Part shown: in pieces, positions 4,593-60,598 of the stretch
Layout of the letters: the number at the start of each line of letters is the position of its first letter
How positions within the stretch are numbered: the stretch's first letter is position 1
Assembly (NCBI GenBank): GCA_030655515.1
Contig: JAURVI010000044.1
Location: 1 to 64,000, forward strand
From: Polaromonas sp.
GTDB lineage: Bacteria > Pseudomonadota > Gammaproteobacteria > Burkholderiales > Burkholderiaceae_C
Length of the DNA: 64,000 nt
Direction of reading: 5' to 3'
Notes under the pieces: model-generated
What the model saw: only the letters and a program-made list of their open reading frames with translations
Told to the model about the DNA's origin: nothing
The model's database searches: none
Program-made: the position numbers and the translations under genes

Positions 4593-4632
4593 GGAGAGTC
4601 TCCTGTAAAACAAACACGGGTGCTGAACCCTG

Positions 4633-4795
4633 GGGAAGCGCGGATTTATTCGTCGTGGATTCCCGGCGCTTGGTTTGGGATGGGCTGCAAGGCGCAATTT
4701 GCAGCCAATAGCCGTAGCTATTGGCAAAAATTGCAACGCCGCAGACCGCCCAAGCCAAGTGATCGGGGGCCGCGAGGAATAAATCCGCGCTTCCC
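4633..4795. repeat. 163-nt palindromic element with 19-bp perfect terminal inverted repeats
   Basis: Bases 4633-4651 and 4777-4795 are perfect inverted copies (GGGAAGCGCGGATTTATTC). The inner arms also pair imperfectly, ending in the central stem GCCAATAGC-CGTA-GCTATTGGC at 4704-4725. The whole element can fold into one long hairpin. It fills nearly all the space between two divergent genes, leaving about 40 bp to one start and 21 bp to the other. No open reading frame or clear target duplication is visible, so it resembles a MITE or REP-type element. Confidence 0.85.
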
Positions 4796-4816
4796 AAGCA
4801 CTTTGGAGAAACTCCG

Positions 4817-14451: not shown

Positions 14452-14525
14452 CCGGCTTCGCCGGGCCGCAGGCGCAGCGCCCCCTCGGGGGGCAGCGCAT
14501 TACACGAAGTGAAAAGCGTGGGGGC
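14452..14525 (+). repeat. GC-rich interspersed repeat
   Basis: The block shares GCCGGGCCGC, the perfect palindrome-like CCCCCTCGGGGGG and TTACACGAAGTGAAAAGCGT with the copies at 59309 and 59720, and its reverse complement resembles that at 1689. It sits between the ettA stop and the DUF1415 gene. Its last bases reach within a base or two of the ettA stop codon. Confidence 0.85.
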
Positions 14526-16528: not shown

Positions 16529-18196
16529 ATGACTTTTGAAAATCTGAATCTGGCCCCGGCCATTCTTAAAGCCGTGCTTGAGCAAGGCTACGACACACCC
16601 ACCCCCATCCAGGCCCAGGCGATTCCCGCCGTGCTGGCCGGCGGCGACCTGCTCGGCGGCGCCCAGACCGGCACCGGCAAAACGGCGGCCTTCGTGCTGC
16701 CCATGCTGCAGCGCCTGTCTTCCGAGCCAGCCCTGAAAAACAAGCGCGGCGTCAACGCCGTGCGCGCCCTCATCATGACGCCCACGCGCGAACTGGCCGC
16801 CCAGGTCGAGGAAAGCGTGCGCGTTTACGGCAAATACCTCGAACTGAGCTCCATGGCGATGTTCGGCGGTGTCGGCATGGGCGCGCAAATCGACAAACTG
16901 CGCCGCGGCGTCGATATTCTGGTCGCCACCCCCGGCCGCCTGCTCGATCACGCCAGCCAGGGCACACTGGACTTGGGCCAGGTACAAATCCTGGTGCTCG
17001 ACGAAGCCGACCGCATGCTCGACATGGGCTTCATCCACGACATCAAGAAAGTGCTGGCCCTGGTGCCCAAGCAGAAGCAGTCGCTGCTGTTCAGCGCGAC
17101 CTTCAGCGATGAAATCCGCGAGCTGGCCAACGGCCTGCTGAAAAATCCGCAAAGCATCCAGGTCACGCCGCGCAACACCACGGTGCAGCGCATCACGCAG
17201 ACGATTCACCCCGTCGGCCGCAGCAAGAAGAAAGCGCTGCTCACGCACATCATCAACGAGCACAACTGGAGCCAGGTGCTGGTGTTCACCCGCACCAAGT
17301 TCGGCGCCAATAATGTGGCCGAGCACCTGACGAAAAACGGCATCCCCGCGATGGCGCTGCATGGCAACAAGAGCCAGACCGCCCGTACCCAGGCCCTGCA
17401 GGACTTCAAGAGCGGCAGCATACGCGCGCTGGTGGCCACCGACATCGCCGCCCGCGGCATCGACATCGATGAGCTGCCACACGTCGTGAACTACGAAATC
17501 CCCAACGTCAGCGAAGACTATGTGCATCGCATCGGCCGCACCGGCCGCGCCGGCAACAGCGGCGAGGCCGTGAGTCTGGTGTGCCTGGACGAAGAAGGCT
17601 TCATGCAGGACATCGAGCGCTTCACCAAGCAGAACATCGAAAAAGTCATCGTGCCCGGTTTTGAAGCCGAGCCCGGCGAAAAAGCCGAGCCGCTGGCCAT
17701 GGGCCGCCAGACCATCTGGGGCGGCCTGGGCAAACCGCCCAGTCGCGACGTGATGCAGGCCGCGGCCAAGGCCGCGCGCAGCGAAATGATGACACGCGTG
17801 CGTGAGAACAAACCTCAGTCAGGCCGTGGCGCCGGCAATGCAGGCGGCGGTGGCGGCAATGGAAGAGGCCGCAACGGCGGTGGCGGGCGCAGCCAGCCCC
17901 AGGGCGGCCAGCCGCGCCAGAACTCGGACTACTCGCAAGGCGGCCGGCCGGCACAACAGCAAGCGCGCAACCCCAATGCACAGGCACCAAGACACCGCGA
18001 CCCCGAGGAACGCGGTGACGCACAACCCACCAGCCATGTCTCCTCAGGGTTCCCCTCATCGGGCCAGCCCACGGGCGGCAACCGCGGCAGCTTCCGCGGC
18101 GGTCGGCCAGCCGGCGGCGGACGATCCGGTGGCCCGGGTGGCCGGAGCAACGGGTCGGGCCGCTCCGGCAATTCTGGCTCGTTTACGGGCCGATAG
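16529..18196 (+). CDS. rhlE: DEAD-box RNA helicase RhlE
   Basis: The 555-residue helicase has the Q-motif ([13 protein letters not shown]), motif I AQTGTGKT (residues 45-52), [19 protein letters not shown], the DEAD box in [21 protein letters not shown], and the C-terminal motifs [12 protein letters not shown] and [10 protein letters not shown]. The last 120 or so residues are low-complexity and rich in Gly, Arg, Asn and Gln, an RNA-binding tail typical of RhlE. It remodels rRNA and mRNA in ribosome assembly and cold adaptation. The start at 16529 is chosen because MTFENLNL aligns with RhlE N-termini. Confidence 0.93.
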
Positions 18197-18198
18197 CA

Positions 18199-18262
18199 GG
18201 CCCCCACGCCCGCTCACGGCGTGTTGTGGCCCTCTGGCCGGGCTTGCTTGGGGCGGCCCGGC
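18199..18262 (-). repeat. Degenerate copy of the GC-rich interspersed repeat
   Basis: Immediately after the rhlE stop the sequence GGCCCCCACGCC...GGCTTGCTTGGGGCGGCCCGG resembles the element at 1689, with drift in the middle. It lies between convergent rhlE and cupin genes. No T-run follows, so termination activity is uncertain. Confidence 0.6.
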
Positions 18263-18331
18263 GGCTGCGCGCCAAAACCCGGAGAATGGGCCTGGACGGC
18301 GGCACACCGACACTGGCCGCAAACGCGTCCG

Positions 18332-18903: not shown

Positions 18904-18955
18904 CAATAGCTATTGAAAACATAGCTGCTTACGCTCATATCTGCTGGGTTCGCGC
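18904..18955 (+). repeat. A/T-richer interspersed repeat with CAATAGCTATTG palindrome
   Basis: The palindrome CAATAGCTATTG (18904-18915) is followed by AAAACATAGCTGCTTACGCT. The CTATTGAAA...AGC pattern is reminiscent of a short repeat frequent in Comamonadaceae intergenic DNA, recalled here without a search. A related fragment (GCTATTGAAATCAGAGC) occurs inside ybgC near 59673. It lies in the leader of the downstream thioesterase gene. Confidence 0.45.
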
Positions 18956-58060: not shown

Positions 58061-59257
58061 ATGAGAATTGCCCGGCGTGCGCAGCGCATTGAGCCTTTTT
58101 ATGTGATGGAGATCGCCAAAGCGGCGGCGACGATGGCCCGGGAAGTCGCCCACACCGCCCAGCCGATGATTTTTTTGAACATTGGCGAGCCCGATTTCAC
58201 CGCGCCACCGCTGGTTCGGCAGGCCGCCGCACGGGCCATTCAGGACGGCAACACCCAGTACACGCAGGCGACCGGCCTGCAAGCCTTGCGCGAATGCATC
58301 AGCAACTGGTACGCCACGCGTTTTCACGCCGATGTCGACCCTGGCCGCATCATCATCACCGCCGGTGCTTCAGCGGCCCTGCAACTGGCCTGCCTGGCGC
58401 TGATCGAGGCGGGCGACGAGATTTTGATGCCCGACCCCAGCTACCCCTGCAACCGCCACTTCGTCAGCGCCGCCGACGGCACCGCGGTGCTGATTCCGAC
58501 CACGGACGAAGAGCGCTTCCAGCTCAGCAGCGCCAAGGTGCAGGCCGCGTGGACAGCCGCCACCCGCGGCGTGCTGCTGGCTTCGCCGTCCAACCCGACC
58601 GGCACCTCGATTGCGCCGGAGGAGTTGCGCCGCATTCATGAGTTTGTCCACAGCCGCGGTGGCATCACCCTGATTGATGAAATTTACCTGGGTCTGAGCT
58701 ACGAAGAACGCTTTGGCCAGACCGCGCTGGCCATGGCTGATGGTTTGGGCGAGCGCATCATCAGCATCAACAGCTTCAGCAAGTACTTCAACATGACGGG
58801 CTGGCGCCTGGGCTGGCTGGTCGTGCCCGAGGCGCTGGCGCCGGTGGTCGAACGCATCGCGCAAAACCTGTTCATCTGCGCCAGCACCGTCGCCCAACAC
58901 GCCGCGCTGGCCTGTTTTGAACCCGACAGCCTGGCCGAATACGAACGCCGCCGCGCCGAGTTCAAGGCCAGGCGCGACTACTTCATTCCCGAACTCAACC
59001 GCCTGGGCCTTCGTGTACCGGTCATGCCGGACGGCGCTTTTTACGCCTATGCCGACTGCACGGGCGCCGCCGCCCGGCTGGGCGTTTCCGGCAGTTGGGA
59101 CTGTGCGTTTGAACTGATGAGACGCGCCCACTTGGCGGTGACGCCGGGTCGCGATTTCGGAACGATGGCTCCGGAGCGGTACATCCGTTTTTCCACGGCC
59201 AATTCCATGGCCCAACTGAAAGAGGCCGTCGCCCGGCTGGAGGCCGTCCTTGGCTAG
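58061..59257 (+). CDS. PLP-dependent aminotransferase, class I/II
   Basis: The 398-residue enzyme has GEPDFTAPPLV, TQATGLQALRECI, LASPSNPTGTSI, and the PLP-lysine in SFSKYFNMTGWRLGWLV. The C-terminal arginine region is intact (RYIRFSTANSM). The specificity is uncertain; similar genes are annotated as aspartate- or alanine-type aminotransferases. It follows nusB by 7 bp and its 3' end overlaps the longest possible ybgC start. Confidence 0.9.
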   Translation: MRIARRAQRIEPFYVMEIAKAAATMAREVAHTAQPMIFLNIGEPDFTAPPLVRQAAARAIQDGNTQYTQATGLQALRECISNWYATRFHADVDPGRIIITAGASAALQLACLALIEAGDEILMPDPSYPCNRHFVSAADGTAVLIPTTDEERFQLSSAKVQAAWTAATRGVLLASPSNPTGTSIAPEELRRIHEFVHSRGGITLIDEIYLGLSYEERFGQTALAMADGLGERIISINSFSKYFNMTGWRLGWLVVPEALAPVVERIAQNLFICASTVAQHAALACFEPDSLAEYERRRAEFKARRDYFIPELNRLGLRVPVMPDGAFYAYADCTGAAARLGVSGSWDCAFELMRRAHLAVTPGRDFGTMAPERYIRFSTANSMAQLKEAVARLEAVLG

Positions 59258-59909
59258 GCCGGGATCAACTGGGGCGAACCCAAATGGGGCGGCAGCGGAG
59301 AAAACCGTGCAATTTTCCGCCGGGCCGCCCCAAGGAAAATTAGCCCCCTCGGGGGGCAGCGTCTTACACGAAGTGAAAAGCGTGGGGGCCACATTCCAAT
59401 GGCCGGTGCGCGTGTACTGGGAAGATACCGACGCCGGCGGCATCGTGTTCTACGCCAACTACCTGAAATTTTTCGAACGCTCGCGCACCGAGTGGCTCAG
59501 ATCGCTGGGCATTGAGCAGCAGCGCCTGCGCGAGAGCACCGGCGGCCTCTTTGTCGTCACGGAGACCCGTCTGCGTTATCACCGCCCGGCCCGCCTCGAT
59601 GATGAACTGACTGTTACCGCGAGCCTGGCCGAAAAAGGCCGCGCGTCCCTGATAATCGAACAGAAGGCGCTATTGAAATCAGAGCAAAATGACCTGCCAT
59701 GCAATTACTCGGGCGACGGGCAATTTTCCGCCGGGCCGCCCCAAGGAAAATTAGCCCCCTCGGGGGGCAGCGCATTACGCGCAGCGAACAGCGTGGGGGC
59801 GACATTACTCTGTGAGGGCACGATACGCATCGGCTGGGTGGACGCCGCCAGCCTCAAACCTGCCAGAATTCCCGCTCACATCCTTGACCGTCTGGAAAGC
59901 ACAACATGA
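59250..59909 (+). CDS. ybgC: Tol-Pal-associated acyl-CoA thioesterase YbgC with in-frame repeat insertions
   Basis: The hotdog thioesterase core starts at about 59398 with VRVYWEDTDAGGIVFYANYL (catalytic Asp in DTDAGG) followed by KFFERSRTEWLRSLG, and ends IGWVDAASLKPARIPAHIL. Two stretches are not YbgC: an N-terminal one and an internal one, both reading QFSAGPPQGKLAPSGGS. Each comes from a copy of an 87-bp genomic repeat. The internal copy lies between two strands, before LLCEGTIRIGW. The start is uncertain: TTG 59250, GTG 59307, or GTG 59373/59382 inside the first repeat. It overlaps tolQ by 4 bp. Confidence 0.85.
   Translation: MARPGSTGANPNGAAAEKTVQFSAGPPQGKLAPSGGSVLHEVKSVGATFQWPVRVYWEDTDAGGIVFYANYLKFFERSRTEWLRSLGIEQQRLRESTGGLFVVTETRLRYHRPARLDDELTVTASLAEKGRASLIIEQKALLKSEQNDLPCNYSGDGQFSAGPPQGKLAPSGGSALRAANSVGATLLCEGTIRIGWVDAASLKPARIPAHILDRLESTT
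59309..59395 (+). repeat. 87-bp GC-rich repeat at the 5' end of ybgC
   Basis: GCAATTTTCCGCCGGGCCGC begins the copy, which continues CCCAAGGAAAATTAGCCCCC and TCGGGGGGCAGCG to GGGGGCCACATT. It is 87 bases long and nearly identical to the copy 411 bases downstream, apart from about ten substitutions. It supplies possible GTG start codons for ybgC. Confidence 0.92.
59720..59806 (+). repeat. 87-bp GC-rich repeat inside ybgC, in frame
   Basis: The second copy starts GCAATTTTCCGCC and ends GCGTGGGGGCGACATT. The offset of 411 bases from the first copy is a multiple of three, so both are read in the same frame. It has no stop codon in that frame. It is preceded by a fragment (GCTATTGAAATCAGAGC, near 59673) of a second repeat family. 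Confidence 0.92.
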
Positions 59910-60598
59910 ATCAGGATTTATCCATCGTCAGTCTCATTCTCAACGCCAGTTGGGTGGTCCAGGGCGTCGTGGCCTTGCTGGTCGGCGTGTCGATCACGAG
60001 CTGGGCCGCGATCTTCCGCAAGATCATCTCGCTCAAGCGCGTGCAGTCGCTCAATGACGCGTTTGACCGCGAGTTCTGGTCCGGCACCAGCCTGAACGAT
60101 TTGTATGCCGCAGCCACGCAGAACGCCAAACACAGCGGGCCGATGGAACGCATTTTCGCCAGCGGCATGCGCGAATTCCAGAAGCTGCGCGAGCGCCGCA
60201 TGGCGGACCCCAGCACCCTGCTGGACGGCGCCCGCCGCGCCATGCGCGCGAGTTACCAGCGCGAGGTCGATGCGGTCGAATCGAATCTGTCTTTCCTGGC
60301 TACGGTCGGCTCGGTCTCGCCTTACGTGGGCCTGTTCGGCACGGTCTGGGGCATCATGCATGCCTTCACCGGCCTGGCCGCGCTGGAGCAGGTCACGCTG
60401 TCGAGCGTGGCGCCCGGCATTGCCGAAGCGCTGGTGGCTACCGCGATTGGCCTGTTCGCCGCCATTCCCGCGGTGGTGGCCTACAACCGCTTTGCCCACG
60501 ACATCGACCGCGTGGCCAACAAGCTGGAGACCTTCATCGAAGAGTTCTCCAACATCCTGCAACGCAACCTGGGCGCGCAGTCGCCTTCAGGTCACTAG
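59906..60598 (+). CDS. tolQ: Tol-Pal system proton channel subunit TolQ
   Basis: The 230-residue protein has three membrane helices and the MotA/ExbB domain: FLATVGSVSPYVGLFGTVWG, then IAEALVATAIGLFAAIPAVV. With TolR it converts the proton gradient into force on TolA during cell constriction. It overlaps ybgC by 4 bp and precedes tolR by 14 bp. Length equals E. coli TolQ (230). Confidence 0.95.
   Translation: MNQDLSIVSLILNASWVVQGVVALLVGVSITSWAAIFRKIISLKRVQSLNDAFDREFWSGTSLNDLYAAATQNAKHSGPMERIFASGMREFQKLRERRMADPSTLLDGARRAMRASYQREVDAVESNLSFLATVGSVSPYVGLFGTVWGIMHAFTGLAALEQVTLSSVAPGIAEALVATAIGLFAAIPAVVAYNRFAHDIDRVANKLETFIEEFSNILQRNLGAQSPSGH

Follow-up and report, generated by a model that had tools for sequence, protein, structure and literature searches.

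How can a short conserved gene take up two copies of an interspersed repeat and still be read as one protein? The question is raised by ybgC in a Polaromonas metagenome-assembled genome (G000; 2.65 Mb in 52 contigs, 84.8% complete, 5.2% contamination), from which a stretch of 64,000 nt, here called the window, was taken. The reading that we favour, with a probability of roughly 0.86, is that the copies in ybgC are tolerated as in-frame disordered spacers, and that insertions elsewhere are filtered by phase, frame and protein site.

Two repeat copies in the open frame of ybgC

A single frame at 59250–59909 on the forward strand (219 codons and a stop) reads through both repeat copies, which lie at 59306–59395 and 59717–59806 on the same strand, are 91% identical over 90 nt and begin 411 nt, or 137 codons, apart. 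This confirms the two near-identical in-frame copies described in the earlier note. A 32-nt core of the repeat occurs twice in the window, compared to no matches in 100 shuffles. Both copies are translated as QFSAGPPQGKLAPSGGS followed by ten further residues; in the full inserts, defined by repeat searches and translation, copy 1 reads as QFSAGPPQGKLAPSGGSVLHEVKSVGA (codons 59310–59390) and copy 2 as QFSAGPPQGKLAPSGGSALRAANSVGA (codons 59721–59801). The frame matches Pfam families 4HBT (1.8e-15) and 4HBT_2 (2e-15, spanning the internal insert) as well as PDB entries 5v10 and 1s5u, the latter being Escherichia coli YbgC (1.6e-22). Copy 1 lies in an N-terminal extension, in keeping with the N-terminal position first proposed for it. 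There are two candidate start codons. TTG 59250 has GGAGG (59239–59243, forward strand), which from its sequence may be a ribosome-binding site, six bases upstream; GTG 59307, where the 90-nt copy 1 opens, has GGAG upstream at that same distance. A later GTG in the end of copy 1 may be a further candidate.

An AlphaFold2 model built from 46 sequences gave pLDDT above 90 for most of the core (block means 81–98 for residues 51–140 and 90–98 from residue 191 on) and 44–65 for both inserts (53–59 for residues 1–40; 65, 49, 57 and 44 across residues 141–180). The modelled strands 133–142 and 185–198 flank copy 2, and in the alignment to 5v10 the two matched pieces around it are only four residues apart. 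Given this gap and the low confidence between the strands, the copy 2 insert is modelled in the turn between two hotdog strands and is probably disordered there, which bears out the suggestion that it interrupts the hotdog domain between strands.

The nearest relatives (G004, G033 and G017) carry neither insert, and in them LLKSE and LLCEG are four residues apart; these relatives have neither the repeat DNA nor the residues that it encodes here, so the outcome named in the earlier note as refuting its reading, the residues present without the repeat, is not seen. The genus is most likely Polaromonas, as TolQ is 91% identical to that of a named Polaromonas MAG and approximately 79% identical to that of Rhodoferax. 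Elsewhere in the genus, 35 other ybgC loci were compared (L061–L096 minus our own, L096 being the 3' part only), of which one, in G026 (L087), has a repeat at the internal site and seven (L064, L065, L067, L077, L091, L092 and L093) match the profile immediately ahead of the conserved core, L065 in the opposite orientation. Two of 80 named ybgC loci have a match, in a Variovorax MAG and Hydrogenophaga aromaticivorans, both just before the core. The sequence GCTATTGAAATCAGAGC (59669–59685, forward strand), previously taken for a fragment of another repeat adjoining copy 2, was rejected as such: the alignment of relatives and a genome search identify it as native ybgC codons (ALLKSE), LLKSE is also present in relatives without the insert, and GCTATTGAAATCAGAGC occurs only twice in the genome, as GCTATTGAAATNANAGC.

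Two insertions within one short gene might indicate that ybgC is a decaying pseudogene, yet its frame is intact over its whole length, the protein is 82% identical to its G004 homologue and keeps the residues invariant in 46 homologues, the core is confidently modelled, and many other genes show the same in-frame pattern (see below). The only other match in the incomplete G000 assembly is a 29%-identical thioesterase, thus no spare copy of ybgC is seen. We consider decay most unlikely.

A known betaproteobacterial repeat

Judged by its sequence, the element is no new family: it is the Beta-proteobacterial Repeat Element (BRE), which is already known. Searching the genome confirmed an interspersed family, with at least 61 places in G000 found by blastn with the query copy (40 of 136 first-look candidates scored) and 43 by a core-pattern search, compared to none for the reversed control. 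A profile search found at least 80 copies in 54 clusters; as this count covers 194 kb of G000 stretches, the window included, the true copy number may be higher. The ends of contigs C13, C41, C45, C48 and C52 lie in or near BRE copies, thus the assembly probably breaks at the repeat and copies are undercounted.

Tandem copies recur with periods of 78–96 nt. Of the three places in the window outside ybgC where the same family had been reported, two stand: a copy at 1689–1760 on the reverse strand, followed in tandem by a partial copy at 1773–1810 (84-bp period), and a divergent copy at 14457–14525 on the forward strand, whose longest overlapping frame has no Pfam match. The third, reported at 18199, is a weak and degenerate BRE-like stretch (18201–18264, reverse strand, nhmmer E = 0.11) 3' of a helicase ORF ending at 18196. 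The window also contains GCTATTGAAAACATAGC at 18909–18925, which we take to resemble a repeat of this bacterial family, and an inverted repeat (4630–4679 and 4749–4798) with 50-nt arms that are 78% complementary and 69 nt apart.

The 5' hairpin of the element (ATTTTCC/GGAAAAT) keeps its pairing through base changes: 326 of 336 cells are paired in 48 distinct copies, compared to a mean of 290 and a maximum of 302 in 1000 shuffles, which ignore relatedness. The RNA fold of the element was no more stable than that of shuffles. Its 78-nt consensus matches 18 of 24 named genomes, including 17 places in Bordetella ansorpii and 56 in Bordetella genomosp. 5, the listed ones covering query positions 2–49 at 88–96% identity. 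BRE looks dispensable, since A-frame matches are missing from five of the 61 genus genomes, three of which (G022, G087 and G101, only G087 being > 90% complete) gave no match in any of four peptide searches. Six plasmid records have a BRE match, and in the incomplete gene table no annotated feature lies under the best BRE place in any of them.

Insertions in other conserved genes

We scanned 50 candidate ORFs with Pfam; these had been picked as open, a choice by which any gene that BRE had broken would be missed. Sixteen of the 54 clusters lie inside conserved genes with the frame kept, as judged by Pfam matches that extend across the insert or lie on either side of it: MoeA, Lnt, GlyQ, PurL, MoaE, an ABC ATPase (OppD-like), PrmA, an IcmF-like MeaB/mutase, an acyl-CoA dehydrogenase, the MCC biotin carboxylase, UvrA (two copies in tandem), an alpha/beta hydrolase, a low-molecular-weight phosphatase, GcvP, a GluQ-like synthetase and YbgC. 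Where we give a more specific name than that of the Pfam family, it is presumed from recognised sequence. For MoaE and the phosphatase the Pfam match covers one side only, the other side coming from homologues. Six further clusters form in-frame N-terminal extensions (OppC, heptosyltransferase, a VOC protein, IspF, GluQ and YbgC), the translation of which is less sure, as translation may begin downstream of these copies and so leave them out of the protein; one (MFS) forms a C-terminal extension. The remaining 31 are upstream of genes, gave no Pfam match in the frames scanned, or fall outside the scanned set. For each of the 16 internal sites, the insert is missing from two or more of the relatives G004, G033, G017 and G026, the comparison comprising three relatives for MccA and two for GluQ, and the MoeA relatives having a longer, unrelated loop.

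Reading frame and selection

Among 74 copies of at least 65 nt, 65 are stop-free in frame A, 59 in B, nearly all in D and 62 in E, compared to 22 in C and 20 in F. As BRE is thus mostly stop-free in four of its six frames, insertion in the right phase would leave the host gene open. The internal clusters are read in frame A in 11 cases, D in three and C in one, with one mixed (GlyQ) and none in B or E, so that 14 of 16 use A or D compared to an expected 46% (p = 7e-4). The consensus peptide has a net charge of 0 in frame A and -2 in D, and of +7 in both B and E. Genus-wide, among the best 150 listed matches per frame in 61 genomes, ORFs of at least 500 aa number 34 for A and four for B (p = 6e-8), with 12 for D and five for E, and the median ORF is 250 (A), 119 (B), 120 (D) and 85 (E); these are best matches rather than all matches, and the frame lists share copies.

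Net frameshifting indels are found in three of 28 gene-borne copies compared to 24 of 46 others (p = 4e-4), and in none of the 23 A-frame gene copies. The 28 include terminal extensions and leave out the partial acyl-CoA dehydrogenase copy, and the test is partly circular, since a gene broken by an indel would count among the others. If the inserts were removed before or during translation, through RNA splicing or ribosome bypassing, the protein would never carry them and neither frame nor peptide would matter, yet there is avoidance of two of the four open frames, and gene-borne copies less often carry a frameshifting indel. Such removal would suit an element composed of hairpin modules, with covariation in the first of them, and mobile bypassed inserts are known in other systems; Rfam has no family matching 58900–60000 at E up to 1. 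We give removal very little credence, and infer that the inserts are translated.

There is no sign of purifying selection on the insert peptide: pN/pS is 1.46 in A-frame gene copies and 1.15 in others, and in 281 of 300 random subsets the ratio did not exceed that of the gene copies. A codon-position test on the BRE copies gave no third-position excess. Some inserts mix frames, those of GlyQ in G000, OppD in G026 (with a partly cationic stretch) and the Variovorax biotin carboxylase.

The tolerated-spacer reading that we prefer would work as follows. A passive palindromic repeat of approximately 80–90 bp would spread in and between genes of Betaproteobacteria and, with four of six frames mostly stop-free, would keep a host gene open when inserted in the right phase. 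It would be tolerated at a terminus or in a turn, provided that the gene reads it in frame A or D, the peptide then being neutral or slightly acidic, rich in Pro, Gly, Ser and Ala, and likely to act as a disordered spacer of 25–30 residues. Tolerated insertions would survive selection and the rest would be purged; in ybgC a tolerated insertion would have occurred twice. The enzymes would accordingly stay active with their inserts, which would be close to neutral.

Re-used loops in other genomes

Many of the same loops hold BRE in other genomes. The GcvP loop does so in six in all (also G096, G097, G021, G090 and G099), the UvrA site also in G016 and G008, the phosphatase and YbgC internal loops also in G026, the MoaE loop also in G004, and the PurL loop also in G017 and in Limnohabitans sp. 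B9-3, where it is the one match in the whole genome. The biotin carboxylase loop is occupied in the Variovorax MAG and the OppD loop in G026, these being the mixed-frame inserts described above, the PrmA loop in G017 (weakly, E = 3e-4) and, in reverse orientation, in G033, and the IcmF loop in G017, again in reverse orientation. Further in-frame cases, with Pfam matches spanning or flanking the insert, include RecQ, RecJ, a FolC-like Mur ligase, hydantoinase B and an alpha/beta hydrolase and, in named genera, threonine synthase (Paracidovorax cattleyae), CobQ (Variovorax sp. UMC13) and a FAD oxidase (Xenophilus azovorans). Several of these further cases come from G090, an assembly of three contigs, and this argues against assembly error.

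The recurrence of BRE in the same loops in several species, GcvP in particular, and of N-terminal copies at ybgC would be expected if the insert peptide had been exapted for a selected function in regulation, interaction or localisation. Against this, the peptide shows no purifying selection at the codon level, the host proteins are unrelated and close relatives do without the insert. In four genomes the GcvP inserts also differ less at synonymous sites than their flanks (0.13–0.26 compared to 0.39–0.48, some 23 sites per pair), and therefore look, on these sequences, younger than the split, by re-insertion or gene conversion. We regard exaptation as very unlikely. A bolder reading, which we put forward tentatively and hold to be possible rather than probable, is that BRE is an active protein-decorating mobile element. 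It would return repeatedly, and in both orientations, to permissive loops that independent lineages share in the same essential enzymes. If true, the whole genus would be a natural loop-insertion experiment on its proteome.

Two other loci may be mentioned here. At G093:C5:2173049-2173375 (L356), four tandem BRE copies lie in frame in a 775-aa ORF, after a sulfate permease domain. In PurL of G004 (L271) the loop that bears BRE in other species holds a different peptide of the PLPRGEGWGEG type, presumably also repeat-like, as if permissive loops collect several repeat families.

Mobility

BRE is presumed to be mobile. A RAYT as its mobiliser is not supported: Y1_Tnp is found in 60 of 61 genus genomes, including the five without an A-frame match, BRE is absent from the 3.3 kb around our own Y1 gene and present at one of ten such loci in relatives, and neither a GTAG nor a CGTC tag occurs at either end of the consensus. 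As to MITE features, the internal hairpin covaries, and 15 filled/empty alignments gave by eye no consistent target-site duplication and no clean ends either. The Y1 transposase-like protein, mostly 235–280 aa, occurs approximately once in nearly every one of the 61 genomes, as if it were a conserved, domesticated gene.

Comparison with known systems

As published, BRE comprises units of 75–91 bp with high G+C content, in single and tandem copies, in hosts including Polaromonas, Rhodoferax and Bordetella, with 29 copies in Polaromonas sp. JS666 and some copies already noted to be wholly contained in coding sequences (Hot et al. 2011, PMC3110155). Our element agrees in its units of approximately 75–91 bp, single or tandem, its many scattered copies, and the match of its consensus, with up to 96% identity along 48 nt, to repeats in the two Bordetella genomes that were compared. 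The in-frame reading, frame preference, re-used sites and scale seen here go beyond the published account, as far as the available text of that paper extends.

GTAG/CGTC REPs are reported inside ORFs in a number of species, prominent among these ORFs being uvrA and further repair genes. Such tagged intragenic REPs occur in Opitutus, Thauera, Xanthomonas and others, with two Xanthomonas species having one at about the same place in recB, and Bordetella is listed among the species that have untagged REP-like repeats (Di Nocera et al. 2013, PMC3733652, in the available text). The BRE consensus, at 78 nt, exceeds these tagged repeats in length and lacks their end tag. In a literature search that reached few subscription papers, we found no other account of in-frame repeats in Comamonadaceae, Polaromonas or Betaproteobacteria, and no published description of a frame filter or re-used loops for BRE. 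In-frame intragenic palindromes are already known; here they prove to be common in Polaromonas-like bacteria, and what is new is the scale and the pattern for BRE. These inserts provide natural pairs of the same enzyme with and without an insert in related species, a test of the filter that selection imposes on in-frame insertion, and a list of the loops at which conserved enzymes permit insertion, and they are a warning that annotated proteins of these bacteria carry repeat-derived segments.

The closest parallel is with the palindromic elements of Rickettsia and Wolbachia, whose insertions keep the frame of conserved genes that are unrelated to one another (Ogata et al. 2000, 2002, 2005), and in the available descriptions a guanylate kinase with such an insert is reported to be translated and active, with changed affinity (PMC10969869, PMC3767692, PMC2229807). 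The likeness drawn in the earlier note holds for the mode of action, a palindromic repeat in frame in conserved genes (16 clusters in G000, compared by description), the element itself being the named BRE. BRE differs in its betaproteobacterial hosts, its tandem copies and its presence in both orientations. By our findings, protein-coding palindromes would occur not only in the intracellular Rickettsiales and in scattered cases of REPs but also in a widespread betaproteobacterial genus, on a scale similar to that in Rickettsia.
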